A stretch of 35,422 nt of DNA from a bacterium. Its GTDB lineage: Bacteria > Patescibacteriota > Minisyncoccia > Minisyncoccales > CG1-02-41-26. The notes under the pieces are model-generated. The model searched no databases. It was not told the DNA's origin and was given only the letters and a program-made list of their open reading frames with translations. Of this stretch, positions 18,392-25,469 are shown piece after piece. The DNA is taken from NCBI GenBank assembly GCA_021162885.1, contig JAGGXV010000017.1:1-35422 (forward strand), given 5' to 3'. Within the stretch, counting starts at the first letter, position 1. Every line of letters starts with the position of its first letter. A program made the translations under genes and the position numbers.

Positions 18392-18398
18392 CACCCAG

Positions 18399-18801
18399 TG
18401 GAGACGGTGGGAGTTGAACCCACGTGTAGAAGTTTCTCTTGGAGTAGGTCTACAAGCTTAGTCTACTTAAGTTTTTAAGATATTAGAGTAAAAAGTAGAC
18501 AAAAGCTCTAATATCCGAGCCCCATAAATTTTAGCAATTGTTTGGGGCGAAACAATTGCCTATCTCGATATTTATGACACCCAAAGTTACCTATCGAGAA
18601 TCAGTAACCCGGATGGCATTACGCTACAGCGTAAGCGGGTCGTGCGAATAAGTTTGCACTTATTTTATTTGTGGAAGTTTACCCTGTTAAACCCTACAAA
18701 GCGAGAATTTCGCCTTGGTGAAATTATTTAACAGGGTGAATGAGGAACCACACCTCAGCTTGCCTACTTCAGAAAAACTTCTATCAAGTCCGTACGCCCC
18801 C
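18399..18801 (-). ncRNA. ssrA: tmRNA (ssrA); tag ANLFARPAYAVA*
   Basis: 5' GGGGGCG pairs with 3' CGTCTCC; T-arm GTGGGTTCAACTCCCAC; tag ORF GCAAACTTATTCGCACGACCCGCTTACGCTGTAGCGTAA (18657-18619); P2 pairing TAGAAGTTTTTCT/AGAGAAACTTCTA; next to smpB. Confidence 0.93.
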
Positions 18802-19363: not shown

Positions 19364-20959
19364 ATGATAAGGAATGGAATTAAAGAATTACTCAAAGAAA
19401 TTACTGGCAAAGAAGCAAAGGTAGAACATCCAGCCGATGCTAAGCATGGTGATTACTCAACTAATATAGCTATAGTATTTGAGCTTGATCCTGAGAAAAT
19501 TATAAAGAAGATCAAAGATAACCCTATGTTCGGAAAAGTTGAGGTGGTTCATCCTGGATTTATTAATTTTTTTATTTCTAAGAAATATTTACAAAAAGAA
19601 CTCGGTGAGATTTTAAAAAAAGGTGAAAAATTTGGCAAATTAGATATTGGAAAAAACAAAAGGGTCCAGATTGAGTTCATTTCAGCAAATCCCACTGGTC
19701 CTTTAACTGTTGGAAATGCCAGAGGCGGTCCTTTCGGTGATACATTGGCCAACGTTCTGGAAAAAGCAGGTTTTAAGATAGAAAAAGCTTATTATATTAA
19801 TGATTATGGAATGCAAATTTTGGCTCTGGGACATTCGGTTTTAAAGGATTCTGAGGCAAAATACAAAGGCAAATATATTGATGAACTCCGAAAAAGAATC
19901 AAAGTAAAAGATCCTTACAAGGCGGGTCAAAAAGCCGCTAAAATTATCATTGATGAGATAGTTAGGAAGACAACCGAGAATATGGGAATTAAATACGATG
20001 AATGGATTTCAGAAAGAAAACTTCATGAATCTGGACAGGTGGATGAAGTCTTAGAGATTTTAAAGAAAAAAGATTTGGTTTACCAGAAGGAAGGAGCGTT
20101 GTGGTTTCGTTCTTCAAGATTTGGTGATGAAAGAGATAGGGTATTGGTGAAAAAAGACGGTTGGAAAACTTATTTAGCTGGGGATATTGCTCTTCACCGG
20201 TACAAATTTGAGAAGAAAAAATTTGACAAGGTAATAGATATTTGGGGAGCCGACCACTACGGAGATGTTCCCGGTTTAATGGCTGGAGTTGAGGCCTTAG
20301 GTCACAAAGGAAAACTTAAGATTATTTTGCATCAATTTATTACCCTTTTTAAAAGAGGAGAGAAACAAAGAATGTCAAAAAGAAAAGGCATTTATGTGGC
20401 TATGGATGAATTACTCGATGAAGTAGGAGTTGATGTTGTAAGATTCTTTTTTCTCCAAAAATCAGTAAATACTCATTTACATTTTGATTTAGATTTGGCT
20501 AAAGTCGAAGGAGAGAAAAATCCGGTTTATTATATCCAATATGCCTATGCCAGAATATGTAGCATCCTCAAAAAATCAAAAATCAAAAACCGAACTTCTA
20601 AAAAAAGCAAAGTTGGGAAAGAGAACGAAGTTCTCTTCGATAATCAAAAATCAAAAACACAAATTAAAAATAAAAAAATTTTAAAATTATTAGATCAACC
20701 AACCGAATTAAATCTAATTAAACAACTTATTAGGTTTCCAGAGATTATAGAAGATACAGTCAGGGATTATCAAGTTCAAAGATTACCCCAATATGCCCAT
20801 GAACTTGCCCGCCAGTTTCACCAGTTTTACAGGGATTGCAGAGTACTTTCTGAGGATGAAGATTTGAGCCAAGCTCGATTAAATTTAATTTTAGCCACAA
20901 AAACTGTTCTAAAAAACGTTTTGGATTTAATGGGCATTTCTGCTCCCGAAAAAATGTAG
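19364..20959 (+). CDS. argS: Arginyl-tRNA synthetase
   Basis: QIEFISANPTGPLTVGNARGGPFGDTLANVL...DIWGADHYGDVPGLMAG...MSKRKGIYVAMDELLDEVGVDVVRFFFL. Confidence 0.96.
   Translation: MIRNGIKELLKEITGKEAKVEHPADAKHGDYSTNIAIVFELDPEKIIKKIKDNPMFGKVEVVHPGFINFFISKKYLQKELGEILKKGEKFGKLDIGKNKRVQIEFISANPTGPLTVGNARGGPFGDTLANVLEKAGFKIEKAYYINDYGMQILALGHSVLKDSEAKYKGKYIDELRKRIKVKDPYKAGQKAAKIIIDEIVRKTTENMGIKYDEWISERKLHESGQVDEVLEILKKKDLVYQKEGALWFRSSRFGDERDRVLVKKDGWKTYLAGDIALHRYKFEKKKFDKVIDIWGADHYGDVPGLMAGVEALGHKGKLKIILHQFITLFKRGEKQRMSKRKGIYVAMDELLDEVGVDVVRFFFLQKSVNTHLHFDLDLAKVEGEKNPVYYIQYAYARICSILKKSKIKNRTSKKSKVGKENEVLFDNQKSKTQIKNKKILKLLDQPTELNLIKQLIRFPEIIEDTVRDYQVQRLPQYAHELARQFHQFYRDCRVLSEDEDLSQARLNLILATKTVLKNVLDLMGISAPEKM
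20596..20668 (+). repeat. Palindrome-bearing repeat inserted in frame in argS (copy A)
   Basis: Ends in aagagaac-gaa-gttctctt hairpin then aatcaaaaatcaaaaa; encodes KNRTSKKSKVGKENEVLFDNQKSK. Confidence 0.85.
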
Positions 20960-21595: not shown

Positions 21596-24529
21596 ATGGA
21601 TTTTCCAAAAATTGAACAAAAAATTCTAAAGTTCTGGAAAGAAAACAAGATTTTTGAAAAAAGCACTTCTCAACGAAAGAAGCAAAAAAGATTTGTTTTT
21701 CTTGAAGGGCCACCTTATGCTAACGGCAAACCGGGAATTCATCACCTTTTAGCTCGGGCTTTCAAAGATATTATTTTGCGTTACAAAACAATGCGGGGAT
21801 TTTTAGTTGAGAGAAAAGCTGGTTGGGATACTCATGGTTTACCAACCGAAATTGCTGCTGAAAAAACTTTAGGTATTAAAACAAAAAAAGATATTGAAAA
21901 AATAGGAATTGGAAAGTTCATTTCAGTCTGCAGAAAAAATGTTTTTACTTACAAAAAAGAATGGGAAAAATTTACCGAGAGAATTGGCTACTGGCTCGAT
22001 TTAAAACATCCTTATGTTACTTGCGATAATCATTATATTGAAAGTTTGTGGTGGATAATAAAACAATTTTGGCAAAAAGGATTACTTTATCAATCAAAAA
22101 GAGTTATTCCTTGGTGCCCGAGGTGTCAGACCTCCCTTTCATCACATGAGATCGCTCAAGGATATAAGAAAATAAAAGAACCAGCTATTTATGTAAAATT
22201 CCGAGTTAAACATTCTAAAATCTGTCATCTAAAACCTAACACCTGTCTTTTAATTTGGACGACAACCCCCTGGACTTTGCCAGGGAATGTGGCAGTGGCG
22301 ATTAATCCGGAATTAGATTATGTTCTTTTGAGAAGAAATAAAGAATTTTTTGTCGTGGCCGAAGGAAGAGTAAAGCAAGTTTTTAAAAACAAAGATTATC
22401 AAATTATTAAAAAATTCAAAGGTAAGAATTTAATCGGTTTAAAATATAAACCCCTTTATCAAACGGCAAACTTTTATGAAGTTCTGCCCGCCTCTTTTGT
22501 TTCTTTGGAGGAAGGAACAGGTCTGGTTCATATTGCCCCAGCTTTTGGTGGAGATGATTACGAGCTTTGCAAATCTCAAAAAATAATAAAAGAAGCGGAA
22601 ATCCCAATTCCAGTTACAGAAGATGGGAAAATGAAAAAAGGAATAATTGGGGAGGGAAAGTTTATTAAAGAGGCTGATAAACTTATTATTGGAGACCTAA
22701 AAAAAAGAAATCTTCTTTTCAAGGAAGAGCGATATGAGCATGATTATCCTTTTTGTTGGCGATGCGAAACTCCTCTTATGTATTATTTACATTCTTCCTG
22801 GTTTGTTGAAACAACAAAAATAAAAAATGACTTGATTAAAAATAATCAAAAAATAAATTGGATACCTTCTTATTTAAAAGAAGGGAGATTCGGGAAATGG
22901 TTGGAAGAACTTAAAGATTGGAATTTTTCCAGAGAAAGATATTGGGGAACACCTTTACCGATCTGGCGATGTCAAAAATGCCAAGAGATAAAAGTAATTG
23001 GTTCGGTTAAAGAATTGGAAAAGCTCAGTGGTAAAAAGATTAAAGATCTCCACCGACCTTATGTTGATAAAGTCAATTTAAAGTGTGAAAAATGCGGAGG
23101 AGTGATGAAACGAACCTTAGAAGTAGTTGACGTTTGGTTTGATTCAGGTTCTATGCCCTATGCTCAGTGGCATTATCCTTTCGAAAACAGGAATTTTATT
23201 GATAAAAAAATATTTTTCCCAGCCAATTTTATTTGTGAAGGAATAGACCAAACTCGCGGCTGGTTTTATACTTTATTGGCTGTTTCAACCCTGCTTAAGT
23301 TTGGACCACCTTACAAAAATGTTATTGTTACTGGAATTGTTTTGGACAAGAAAGGACATAAGATGTCAAAATCTAAGGGCAACATTGTAGAGCCTTTTGA
23401 GATAGCCGAAAAATACGGAGTTGATGCTGTGCGTTGGTATTTTTACACCATCAATCAGCCGGCCGAACCTAAACTTTTTTCAGAAAAAGATATTGAGATA
23501 AATTTAAAGAAATTTCTGATGACCTATTGGAATTGCTATTCATTTTTCCAAACCTATGTAATAGACAAGCGACCATTGAAATCGTATTACAGCATCAAAA
23601 GCAGAAATATTTTGGATAGATGGATTCTCTCCAAGTTAAATGAATTAATTTTAGGAGTCACTGAAAGCTTAGAGAAATTCGATGTGGTTTTAGCAGCACG
23701 AACACTGGAGAATTTTGTAATCAATGACCTTTCTCTGTGGTATATTCGAAGGTCAAGAAAGAGATTTCAGCGACCAAAAAATAAAAAAGAACTAAAAGAG
23801 GCCTCTCGGACTTTAGAATATGTTCTTTTAATCTTAAGCAAATTAACTGCCCCTTTTGTTCCGTTTTTATCAGAGGAAATTTACCGATGTTTAACTTACG
23901 GTGTTAAACAGTCGGTTCATTTGGAAGATTGGCCAAGAGCAAATGAAAAGTTGATTAACCGACCCCTTGAGCAACAAATGGACTTGGTTCGTCAGATTGT
24001 AAGTTTGGGGCTGCGAGCCAGAGCCGAAGCCAAGATAAAAGTCCGCCAGCCAATCGCTTCGCTCAAAATTAAAAACCGAGCTTCTAAAAGAAACGAGGTT
24101 GGAGAAGAGAACGAAGTTCTCTTCGACAATCAAAAATCAAAAATCAAAGATAATAAAGAACTATTACAGCTAATTAAGGATGAAGTGAATGTAAAAGAAA
24201 TTATTTTTGACCCGAAAATTAAAGAAGAAATAGAACTGGATACAAAAATTACTAAAGAATTAAAAGAGGAGGGCCAACTTCGAGAACTCATCCGGCACAT
24301 TCAAGGTCTCCGCAAAAAAGAAAGTCTTACTCCAAAAGATAAAATTGTGATTTATTACCAAGGTGAAAAATCTCTGGAAAGCATTTTAGAAAAAAATAAA
24401 GGAAATATTTTAAAAGACACAAAAGCAAAAGATATTAAAAAAGGATTTCCTAAAAAAGAACTTTTCTTAGAAAAAAAAGAAATTAAAATTGACCAAGCCC
24501 ACCTTACTCTTGCCATTAAAAAAATTTGA
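21596..24529 (+). CDS. ileS: Isoleucyl-tRNA synthetase
   Basis: FLEGPPYANGKPGIHHLLARAFKDIILRYKTMRG...WTTTPWTLPGNVAVAI...GHKMSKSKGNIVEPFEI. Confidence 0.97.
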   Translation: MDFPKIEQKILKFWKENKIFEKSTSQRKKQKRFVFLEGPPYANGKPGIHHLLARAFKDIILRYKTMRGFLVERKAGWDTHGLPTEIAAEKTLGIKTKKDIEKIGIGKFISVCRKNVFTYKKEWEKFTERIGYWLDLKHPYVTCDNHYIESLWWIIKQFWQKGLLYQSKRVIPWCPRCQTSLSSHEIAQGYKKIKEPAIYVKFRVKHSKICHLKPNTCLLIWTTTPWTLPGNVAVAINPELDYVLLRRNKEFFVVAEGRVKQVFKNKDYQIIKKFKGKNLIGLKYKPLYQTANFYEVLPASFVSLEEGTGLVHIAPAFGGDDYELCKSQKIIKEAEIPIPVTEDGKMKKGIIGEGKFIKEADKLIIGDLKKRNLLFKEERYEHDYPFCWRCETPLMYYLHSSWFVETTKIKNDLIKNNQKINWIPSYLKEGRFGKWLEELKDWNFSRERYWGTPLPIWRCQKCQEIKVIGSVKELEKLSGKKIKDLHRPYVDKVNLKCEKCGGVMKRTLEVVDVWFDSGSMPYAQWHYPFENRNFIDKKIFFPANFICEGIDQTRGWFYTLLAVSTLLKFGPPYKNVIVTGIVLDKKGHKMSKSKGNIVEPFEIAEKYGVDAVRWYFYTINQPAEPKLFSEKDIEINLKKFLMTYWNCYSFFQTYVIDKRPLKSYYSIKSRNILDRWILSKLNELILGVTESLEKFDVVLAARTLENFVINDLSLWYIRRSRKRFQRPKNKKELKEASRTLEYVLLILSKLTAPFVPFLSEEIYRCLTYGVKQSVHLEDWPRANEKLINRPLEQQMDLVRQIVSLGLRARAEAKIKVRQPIASLKIKNRASKRNEVGEENEVLFDNQKSKIKDNKELLQLIKDEVNVKEIIFDPKIKEEIELDTKITKELKEEGQLRELIRHIQGLRKKESLTPKDKIVIYYQGEKSLESILEKNKGNILKDTKAKDIKKGFPKKELFLEKKEIKIDQAHLTLAIKKI
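24072..24144 (+). repeat. Palindrome-bearing repeat inserted in frame in ileS (copy B)
   Basis: gaagagaac-gaa-gttctcttc 9-bp hairpin; encodes KNRASKRNEVGEENEVLFDNQKSK, same frame as copy A in argS. Confidence 0.85.
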
Positions 24530-24698: not shown

Positions 24699-25469
24699 AT
24701 GCCATTTACTCATTACAGAACCCAGGGGATTTTTTTGAAAAGGGAAGATCGGGGGGAGGCCGACCAACTTTTTACTGTTTTTACCAAAGATTATGGAAAA
24801 CTTAAGATTTTGGGAAGAGCGATCAGAAAAATCAAATCAAAACTGAGGTCGGGGACTGACCTTTTTTATTTCTCTGAAATTGAATTTATTCAAGGGAAAA
24901 CTTATAAAACCTTGACCGACGCGATTTTAATTGAAAAATTTAAAAACATCAGAAATGACCCAAAGAAATTAGAAATGGCTTATGAAATTACTGACATCCT
25001 TGATTCCTTAACCGGCAAAGAAGAAAAAGACAACAGAATCTGGGAACTTTTACTGAAAAGCTTTCGAGAAATTGAAAATTGTGAAATTGAAAATTCATTG
25101 AAAATTGAAAATTGTAAATTGAGAATTATCTACTATTATTTCCTCTGGAATCTTTTTTCAATTTTAGGATTCAGGCCTGAGCTTTATTCTTGCCCTGTTT
25201 GTGGCAAAAAACTTTTACCAGAAACTTTTTGGTTCTTGCCAAAAGAAGGTGGAATAGTTTGCTGGAAGTGTCTTAAAAAATTCAGCGAAGAAGATAAAAA
25301 ATTAATGAAAGAGATAACTGTTGATACGGTGAAAGTTCTGCGACTTTTTCTGTCTGAAGAGATATTGCCAAGAATTAAAATAACAGAAGAGACCATGAGA
25401 AATTTAAAAGAAGTATCAGAGATTTACCTTTCTTTTTTAAAAGAAGAATTGGCAAAAATGGAAAAGTAA
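24699..25469 (+). CDS. recO: DNA repair protein RecO
   Basis: HYRTQGIFLKREDRGEADQLFTVFTKDYGKLKILGRAIRKIKSKL...CPVCGKKL...CWKC. Confidence 0.93.
   Translation: MPFTHYRTQGIFLKREDRGEADQLFTVFTKDYGKLKILGRAIRKIKSKLRSGTDLFYFSEIEFIQGKTYKTLTDAILIEKFKNIRNDPKKLEMAYEITDILDSLTGKEEKDNRIWELLLKSFREIENCEIENSLKIENCKLRIIYYYFLWNLFSILGFRPELYSCPVCGKKLLPETFWFLPKEGGIVCWKCLKKFSEEDKKLMKEITVDTVKVLRLFLSEEILPRIKITEETMRNLKEVSEIYLSFLKEELAKMEK
25068..25126 (+). repeat. GAAAATTG-type tandem repeat inside recO
   Basis: gagaaattgaaaattgtgaaattgaaaattcattgaaaattgaaaattgtaaattgag. Confidence 0.8.

Follow-up and report, generated by a model that had tools for sequence, protein, structure and literature searches.

A palindromic double-hairpin element of REP/RPE character in argS, ileS and other genes of Parcubacteria and Nealsonbacteria MAGs

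Why should two unrelated aminoacyl-tRNA synthetase genes of one bacterium share a stretch of closely similar DNA, read in the same frame? The question arose from a window of 35,422 nucleotides, the whole stretch of DNA analyzed here, which is one contig of a MAG of 574.5 kb (27 contigs, ~91% complete; genome G000). A preliminary description of the window had pointed to a palindromic repeat in argS with a counterpart in ileS. The segment lies in argS where it had been placed, and the features of the two loci are listed below. The window also holds a tmRNA gene (18396 to 18801, - strand; Rfam RF00023).

19364 to 20959, + strand: argS (arginyl-tRNA synthetase), host of copy 1; Pfam Arg_tRNA_synt_N, tRNA-synt_1d and DALR_1
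20571 to 20589, + strand: left AAAAATC heptamer array beside the argS insert, source of the TCAA target
20589 to 20614, + strand: hairpin 1 in argS, in a decayed form compared with other copies (structure from alignment A1)
20590 to 20643, + strand: inserted element in argS, 54 nt or 18 codons; model R1 match 20587 to 20644, 65.6 bits
20619 to 20637, + strand: hairpin 2 of the argS copy, AAGAGAAC-GAA-GTTCTCTT
20644 to 20660, + strand: right heptamer-type flank of the argS insert
21596 to 24529, + strand: ileS (isoleucyl-tRNA synthetase), host of copy 2; Pfam tRNA-synt_1 and Anticodon_1; 1ile_A, E = 7e-265
24075 to 24099, + strand: hairpin 1 of the ileS copy, ACC-GA-GCTTCT-AAA-AGAAAC-GA-GGT
24076 to 24129, + strand: inserted element in ileS, 54 nt or 18 codons (RASKRNEVGEENEVLFDN); model R1 match 24073 to 24130, 76.3 bits
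24104 to 24124, + strand: hairpin 2 of the ileS copy, GAAGAGAAC-GAA-GTTCTCTTC

Aligned as DNA without gaps, argS (20579 to 20657) and ileS (24065 to 24143) match best over 79 nt, at 89% identity. A gapless match of about 73 nt had been described; its gapless nature held, while its extent did not correspond to the inserted unit, which is 54 nt. The hairpin reported as common to both genes, GAGAACGAAGTTCTC, has only two occurrences in the window, at 20621 and 24107, and the two segments are indeed translated alike in the same frame, as KNR(T/A)SK(K/R)..VG.ENEVLFDNQKSK. When the argS segment was used to search the 574.5-kb genome, the ileS match (E = 5.6e-24) stood far above chance and was accompanied by five further strong copies (E = 1.4e-27 to 7.3e-19), so that the proposed check for other genomic copies returned seven in all.

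Orthologs from relatives indicated how the segments arose. The ileS site of genome G040 reads CTCAAAATTAAAAA|TCAAAAATCAAAAATC, and the window has the same flanks plus exactly 54 nt, apart from a two-base ambiguity in an A run. The 18 residues were missing from an alignment of IleRS from 16 other genomes. At the argS site, genome G012 has a pure AAAAATC array with no element, and relatives' ArgRS proteins lack the element, including that of G001, which is 72% identical to the window protein; the view that the segment interrupts an otherwise ordinary ArgRS is therefore upheld. Some of these ArgRS proteins carry other heptamer arrays, and that of G003 has an unrelated insert at the same loop. In TopA, an insert of the element family was found only in the window's genome and in the distantly related G041, which is the one exception to its absence from the ArgRS, IleRS and TopA of the relatives checked. 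The two TopA inserts belong to different subfamilies and therefore probably arose separately at a single tolerant site. The loop of thrS is likewise a recurrent tolerant site: a heptamer array occupies it in G000, and the element lies there in sense orientation in G041 and antisense in G083. The missing segments in orthologs, together with empty sites at the DNA level, argue for insertion rather than for a conserved part of the protein. Judging from alignments, the argS insert may lie in a surface loop of ArgRS, as had been expected (the PDB alignment is gapped here); a single-sequence structure prediction of the window ArgRS had a mean pLDDT of 35. As a separate matter, the window IleRS is nearer to proteins of other families (62% identity to G036 and 60% to G183) than to those of its own family (~44 to 52%), unlike ArgRS and TopA, and by this comparison is likely a horizontal replacement.

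An alignment of 27 copies from seven genomes (A1) fitted a single pattern. Hairpin 1 has the form ACC-GA-stem-loop-stem-GA(A)-GGT, and hairpin 2 is a 9-bp stem closed by a GAA-type triloop; the stems measure 6 and 9 bp, the loops are mostly 3 nt and the unit is ~54 or 57 nt long. Pairing was seen in 93.2% of alignment cells, compared with 41 to 52% in slid controls, and changes on both sides were found at 10 of 18 pairs, a number reached in 0 of 500 shuffles (mean, 3.9). Either strand folds well, whether as DNA or as RNA, and in most copies three frames, two of them sense and one antisense, contain no stop codon. Rfam had no match to the element in the window or at 11 carrier loci.

Five of the seven strong copies in the window's genome lie in frame in genes (argS, ileS, uvrA, uvrC and topA), and two are intergenic, beside tRNA genes. 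All five coding copies are read in one frame, a bias that is not significant because two sense frames are open. The uvrC copy (L006, around 1470 to 1562) has a tandemly duplicated hairpin 2, the second in another frame. All seven copies have A-rich, heptamer-like flanks. These borders represent a separate (AAAAATC)n array, since the array exists without the hairpins in relatives. Arrays gave 12 matches in this genome and 1 in a reversed control, and the essentially complete genome G041 has many copies of the element and a single exact-type array; arrays and hairpins are separate layers, each occurring without the other. In-frame arrays were seen in many other housekeeping genes of the window's genome (loci L008 to L025), including gyrA, metG, rplY, valS (twice), tsaD (twice), thrS, murC and an M16 peptidase gene. 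Because 7 and 3 share no factor, an array is read as the same 7-residue cycle, KNQKSKI, in each forward frame. In the window, a recO-like ORF (24699 to 25469) has a low-complexity repeat stretch, ENCEIENSLKIENCKLRI, at about residues 125 to 143, which is probably another in-frame array of the heptamer type. Beyond its two arrays, tsaD (L019/L025) also contains a segment, FNFTTPLPPPSRLQRAPSFSIFKQ, that is possibly another palindromic insert.

We surveyed 100 relatives by BLAST and 247 genomes of the order with a covariance model; copy counts per genome are lower bounds. The model found carriers in 27 of the 247, often with at least 20 copies each. Many carriers in families f9, f15, f18 and f19 had at least 22 copies, and one f4 genome had 14. 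Within the window's own family only the window's genome is rich, and two of the other 23 genomes have a single match apiece. Among 387 genomes sampled from the class, 9 were carriers, six of them in this order. One exact core pattern, searched against 85,462 species genomes, was found only in MAGs of Parcubacteria/Nealsonbacteria type and in one further bacterial MAG, and the named carriers are Ca. Nealsonbacteria and Parcubacteria MAGs. The plasmids and phages searched had no match to the element. Such patchy spread with respect to kinship fits horizontal mobility.

To place copies relative to genes, we took 334 kb from carriers, counted non-overlapping matches to an E value of 0.01 and treated simple ORFs as genes. 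This gave 136 model matches, of which 77 were intergenic, 52 lay within ORFs of at least 150 amino acids and 7 were partial. As only 52 of 136 copies lie in ORFs, although 81% of the sampled DNA is coding, coding insertions appear to be counterselected yet common. Host genes in carriers include tsaD, uvrC, pheT, topA, pgk, a miaB-type gene, pnp, metG, uvrA and thrS, and coding copies occur in both orientations and several frames, tracking the stop-free ones. A gene begins on the 5′ side of 22 of the 34 intergenic copies compared, and 14 of the 34 lie directly against a start codon. Of 22 interior coding copies, 19 had a net insertion divisible by three, as did 28 of 40 intergenic copies, which suggests that frame neutrality is largely built in. 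Given open frames in essential genes, the inserts are presumably translated.

The four bases ahead of the model start follow the pattern T-Y-A-W, position -4 being T in 70 of 73 copies and the first three bases TYA in 53 of 73; in G041, T was present in 38 of 39 copies (P = 5e-18 against the background T frequency). Coding copies within heptamer arrays have the target TCAA, supplied by the array, and intergenic copies often have TCAT, the reverse complement of the start codon that they abut. The target bases are host DNA, since ileS and topA homologs have them. No general target duplication was detected, the excess over shuffles coming mainly from A-rich heptamer flanks. IS200/IS605-type elements have hairpin ends that act as single-stranded DNA, a tetra- or pentanucleotide target on the left and no target duplication; hairpins, a short fixed target on one side and no duplication are likewise typical of single-strand elements such as REPs. 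The element resembles an IS200/IS605-derived MITE in its short fixed target 5′ of the left end and its lack of general target duplication; it differs in that several of the richest carriers have no detectable Y1 transposase. Family searches found PF01797 (Y1) in neither the window's genome nor G041, and the RAYT model NF047646 was missing from these two and from G083, G180, G184 and G185. No copy adjoined the Y1 genes examined (20 loci). Mobilization by Y1 or RAYT enzymes thus found no support, as neither family searches nor Y1 neighborhoods gave an association. Our searches found no IS200/IS605 parent with Y1 and the same ends, and such a parent may be divergent or lost. Reverse transcriptase and TnpB showed no association with the element; the window's genome has a reverse transcriptase gene at G000:C17:2966-3619 (PF00078, E = 6e-27). 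Identity between nearest neighbors among G041 copies is mostly 81 to 93%, which gives no sign of ongoing movement. A classical DDE-type MITE was also rejected, on the lack of general target duplication and on ends that form two separate hairpins instead of terminal inverted repeats.

The element had been likened at first sight to the Rickettsia palindromic elements (RPEs), as a coding-sequence invader in a CPR lineage. Relevant parts of the literature on RPEs (Ogata and colleagues; PMC10969869, PMC3733652) describe in-frame palindromic repeats in many unrelated housekeeping genes and in intergenic DNA. The likeness proved right for behavior, as judged by copies and empty sites, and we claim no homology to Rickettsia RPEs. 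In-frame palindromes in coding genes, by which RPEs are recognized, were found here five times in the window's genome and in the 52 ORF copies elsewhere, with empty sites. The element is also palindromic, occurs between genes, has presumably functional hosts and has no known dedicated transposase. Unlike classical RPEs, which are ~150 bp, it is a double hairpin of 54 to 57 nt, is carried by Parcubacteria/Nealsonbacteria, prefers TYAW and lies sense and antisense in several frames across genomes. REPs are short, high-copy, mostly intergenic palindromes, with intragenic ones notably in the replication and repair genes uvrA, uvrB and recB (PMC3733652), and the intragenic copies described here in uvrA, uvrC and topA are comparable. 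However, two different hairpins in a fixed order and GA/GA(A) internal loops distinguish the element from both GTAG and CGTC REPs, and it has neither tag: in 73 left flanks we found no GTAG at the foot of the palindrome, where TYAW stands instead, and no CGTC (or TGTC/CCTC). The RAYT association typical of GTAG REPs was likewise absent from the six carriers and 20 Y1 loci named above. CGTC REPs, which have no dedicated transposase (PMC3733652), combine an 8- to 9-bp stem with a 4- to 5-nt loop and a CCA-type tail, in contrast to the 6- and 9-bp stems and mostly 3-nt loops seen here. Heptanucleotide short repeats are presented in part of another report (PMC4692102) as a known class in bacterial genomes, and the (AAAAATC)n arrays around the element in the window's genome are similar; the element itself is distinct, as arrays occur without hairpins and hairpins without arrays. 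We therefore regard the element as a new REP/RPE-like family, with a sequence of its own and without the tags of GTAG and CGTC REPs. A survey of REPs lists no CPR phylum among those that have them (PMC3733652), and the literature that we searched contained no report of CPR palindromic elements, which is not proof of absence.

We consider it probable that the segment belongs to a mobile palindromic element, non-autonomous and similar in kind to REPs and RPEs. The double hairpin, able to fold on either strand, inserts as a precise block just 3′ of TYAW, perhaps through a single-stranded DNA intermediate and with the help of an HUH-type or other recombinase that would act in trans and may since have been lost. 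A copy that landed in a tolerant protein loop would add ~18 to 19 residues and the gene would survive, because a multiple-of-three length and stop-free frames mean that residues are added and the gene is not killed. In the window's genome, preexisting (AAAAATC)n arrays in loops would have provided both TCAA targets and tolerant sites, and recombination via these arrays may have added to copying. More tentatively, and with some doubt on our part, the element may be a coding-compatible selfish one, near-harmless in genes, that has spread horizontally through a CPR order into essential genes and owes its movement to a novel enzyme or process; that the mover is not a known one is suggested by the absence of a detectable Y1 transposase from several of the most heavily colonized genomes.

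Copies could instead have arisen with no transposase, by recombination, gene conversion or template switching between AAAAATC arrays acting as homology arms round a replication-stalling hairpin. The heptamer-like flanks of all seven copies in the window's genome, the abundance of arrays there, the failure to find a Y1 transposase in it or in G041 and the tandem duplications in some carriers (the uvrC copy included) are consistent with this idea, which we nevertheless judge unlikely, since G041 combines many copies with its one exact-type array and has them beside TYAW at unrelated sites, many at start codons. The frequent gene start at the 5′ side of intergenic copies and the covarying structure would also suit a transcribed regulatory RNA, a 5′ leader or terminator hairpin that entered genes only secondarily; the copies within ORFs, the lack of an Rfam match and a patchy, high-copy distribution unlike that of a regulator make this very improbable.

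Still less credence is due to the idea that selection maintains the segment for a function in the protein, such as RNA binding by an extension of tRNA synthetases. Its location in essential genes and the single frame of the five coding copies agree with such a role, but the idea is largely refuted by the lack of the segment in relatives' orthologs and by the occurrence of the same DNA in genes with no relation to one another and in intergenic positions, as well as in antisense orientation and different frames in other genomes. Least probable of all is that shared ancestry or an error of assembly or binning, and not insertion, produced the pattern: although the window comes from an incomplete MAG in 27 contigs, the copies lie inside long contigs, differ in sequence and leave their host genes unbroken, and the same family is present in independently assembled genomes.

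In-frame palindromic invaders have so far been treated as mostly a Rickettsia curiosity. A mobile REP/RPE-like element would mean that a separate family does likewise, at high copy, in reduced CPR genomes, entering aminoacyl-tRNA synthetases, excision repair proteins and a topoisomerase. It would offer a direct route by which new peptide segments enter old proteins and would account for odd insertions in CPR protein alignments, and since copies are numerous, empty sites exist and the target is fixed, the question of what moves it becomes testable. Unrelated inserts were also seen at the same loops, YKTSSSRSEIRNYLLFEREIRDRY in argS of G003 (L113) and KTTTRPPHPPISDGPLQ in topA of G036 (L203), hinting at further insert families in CPR.
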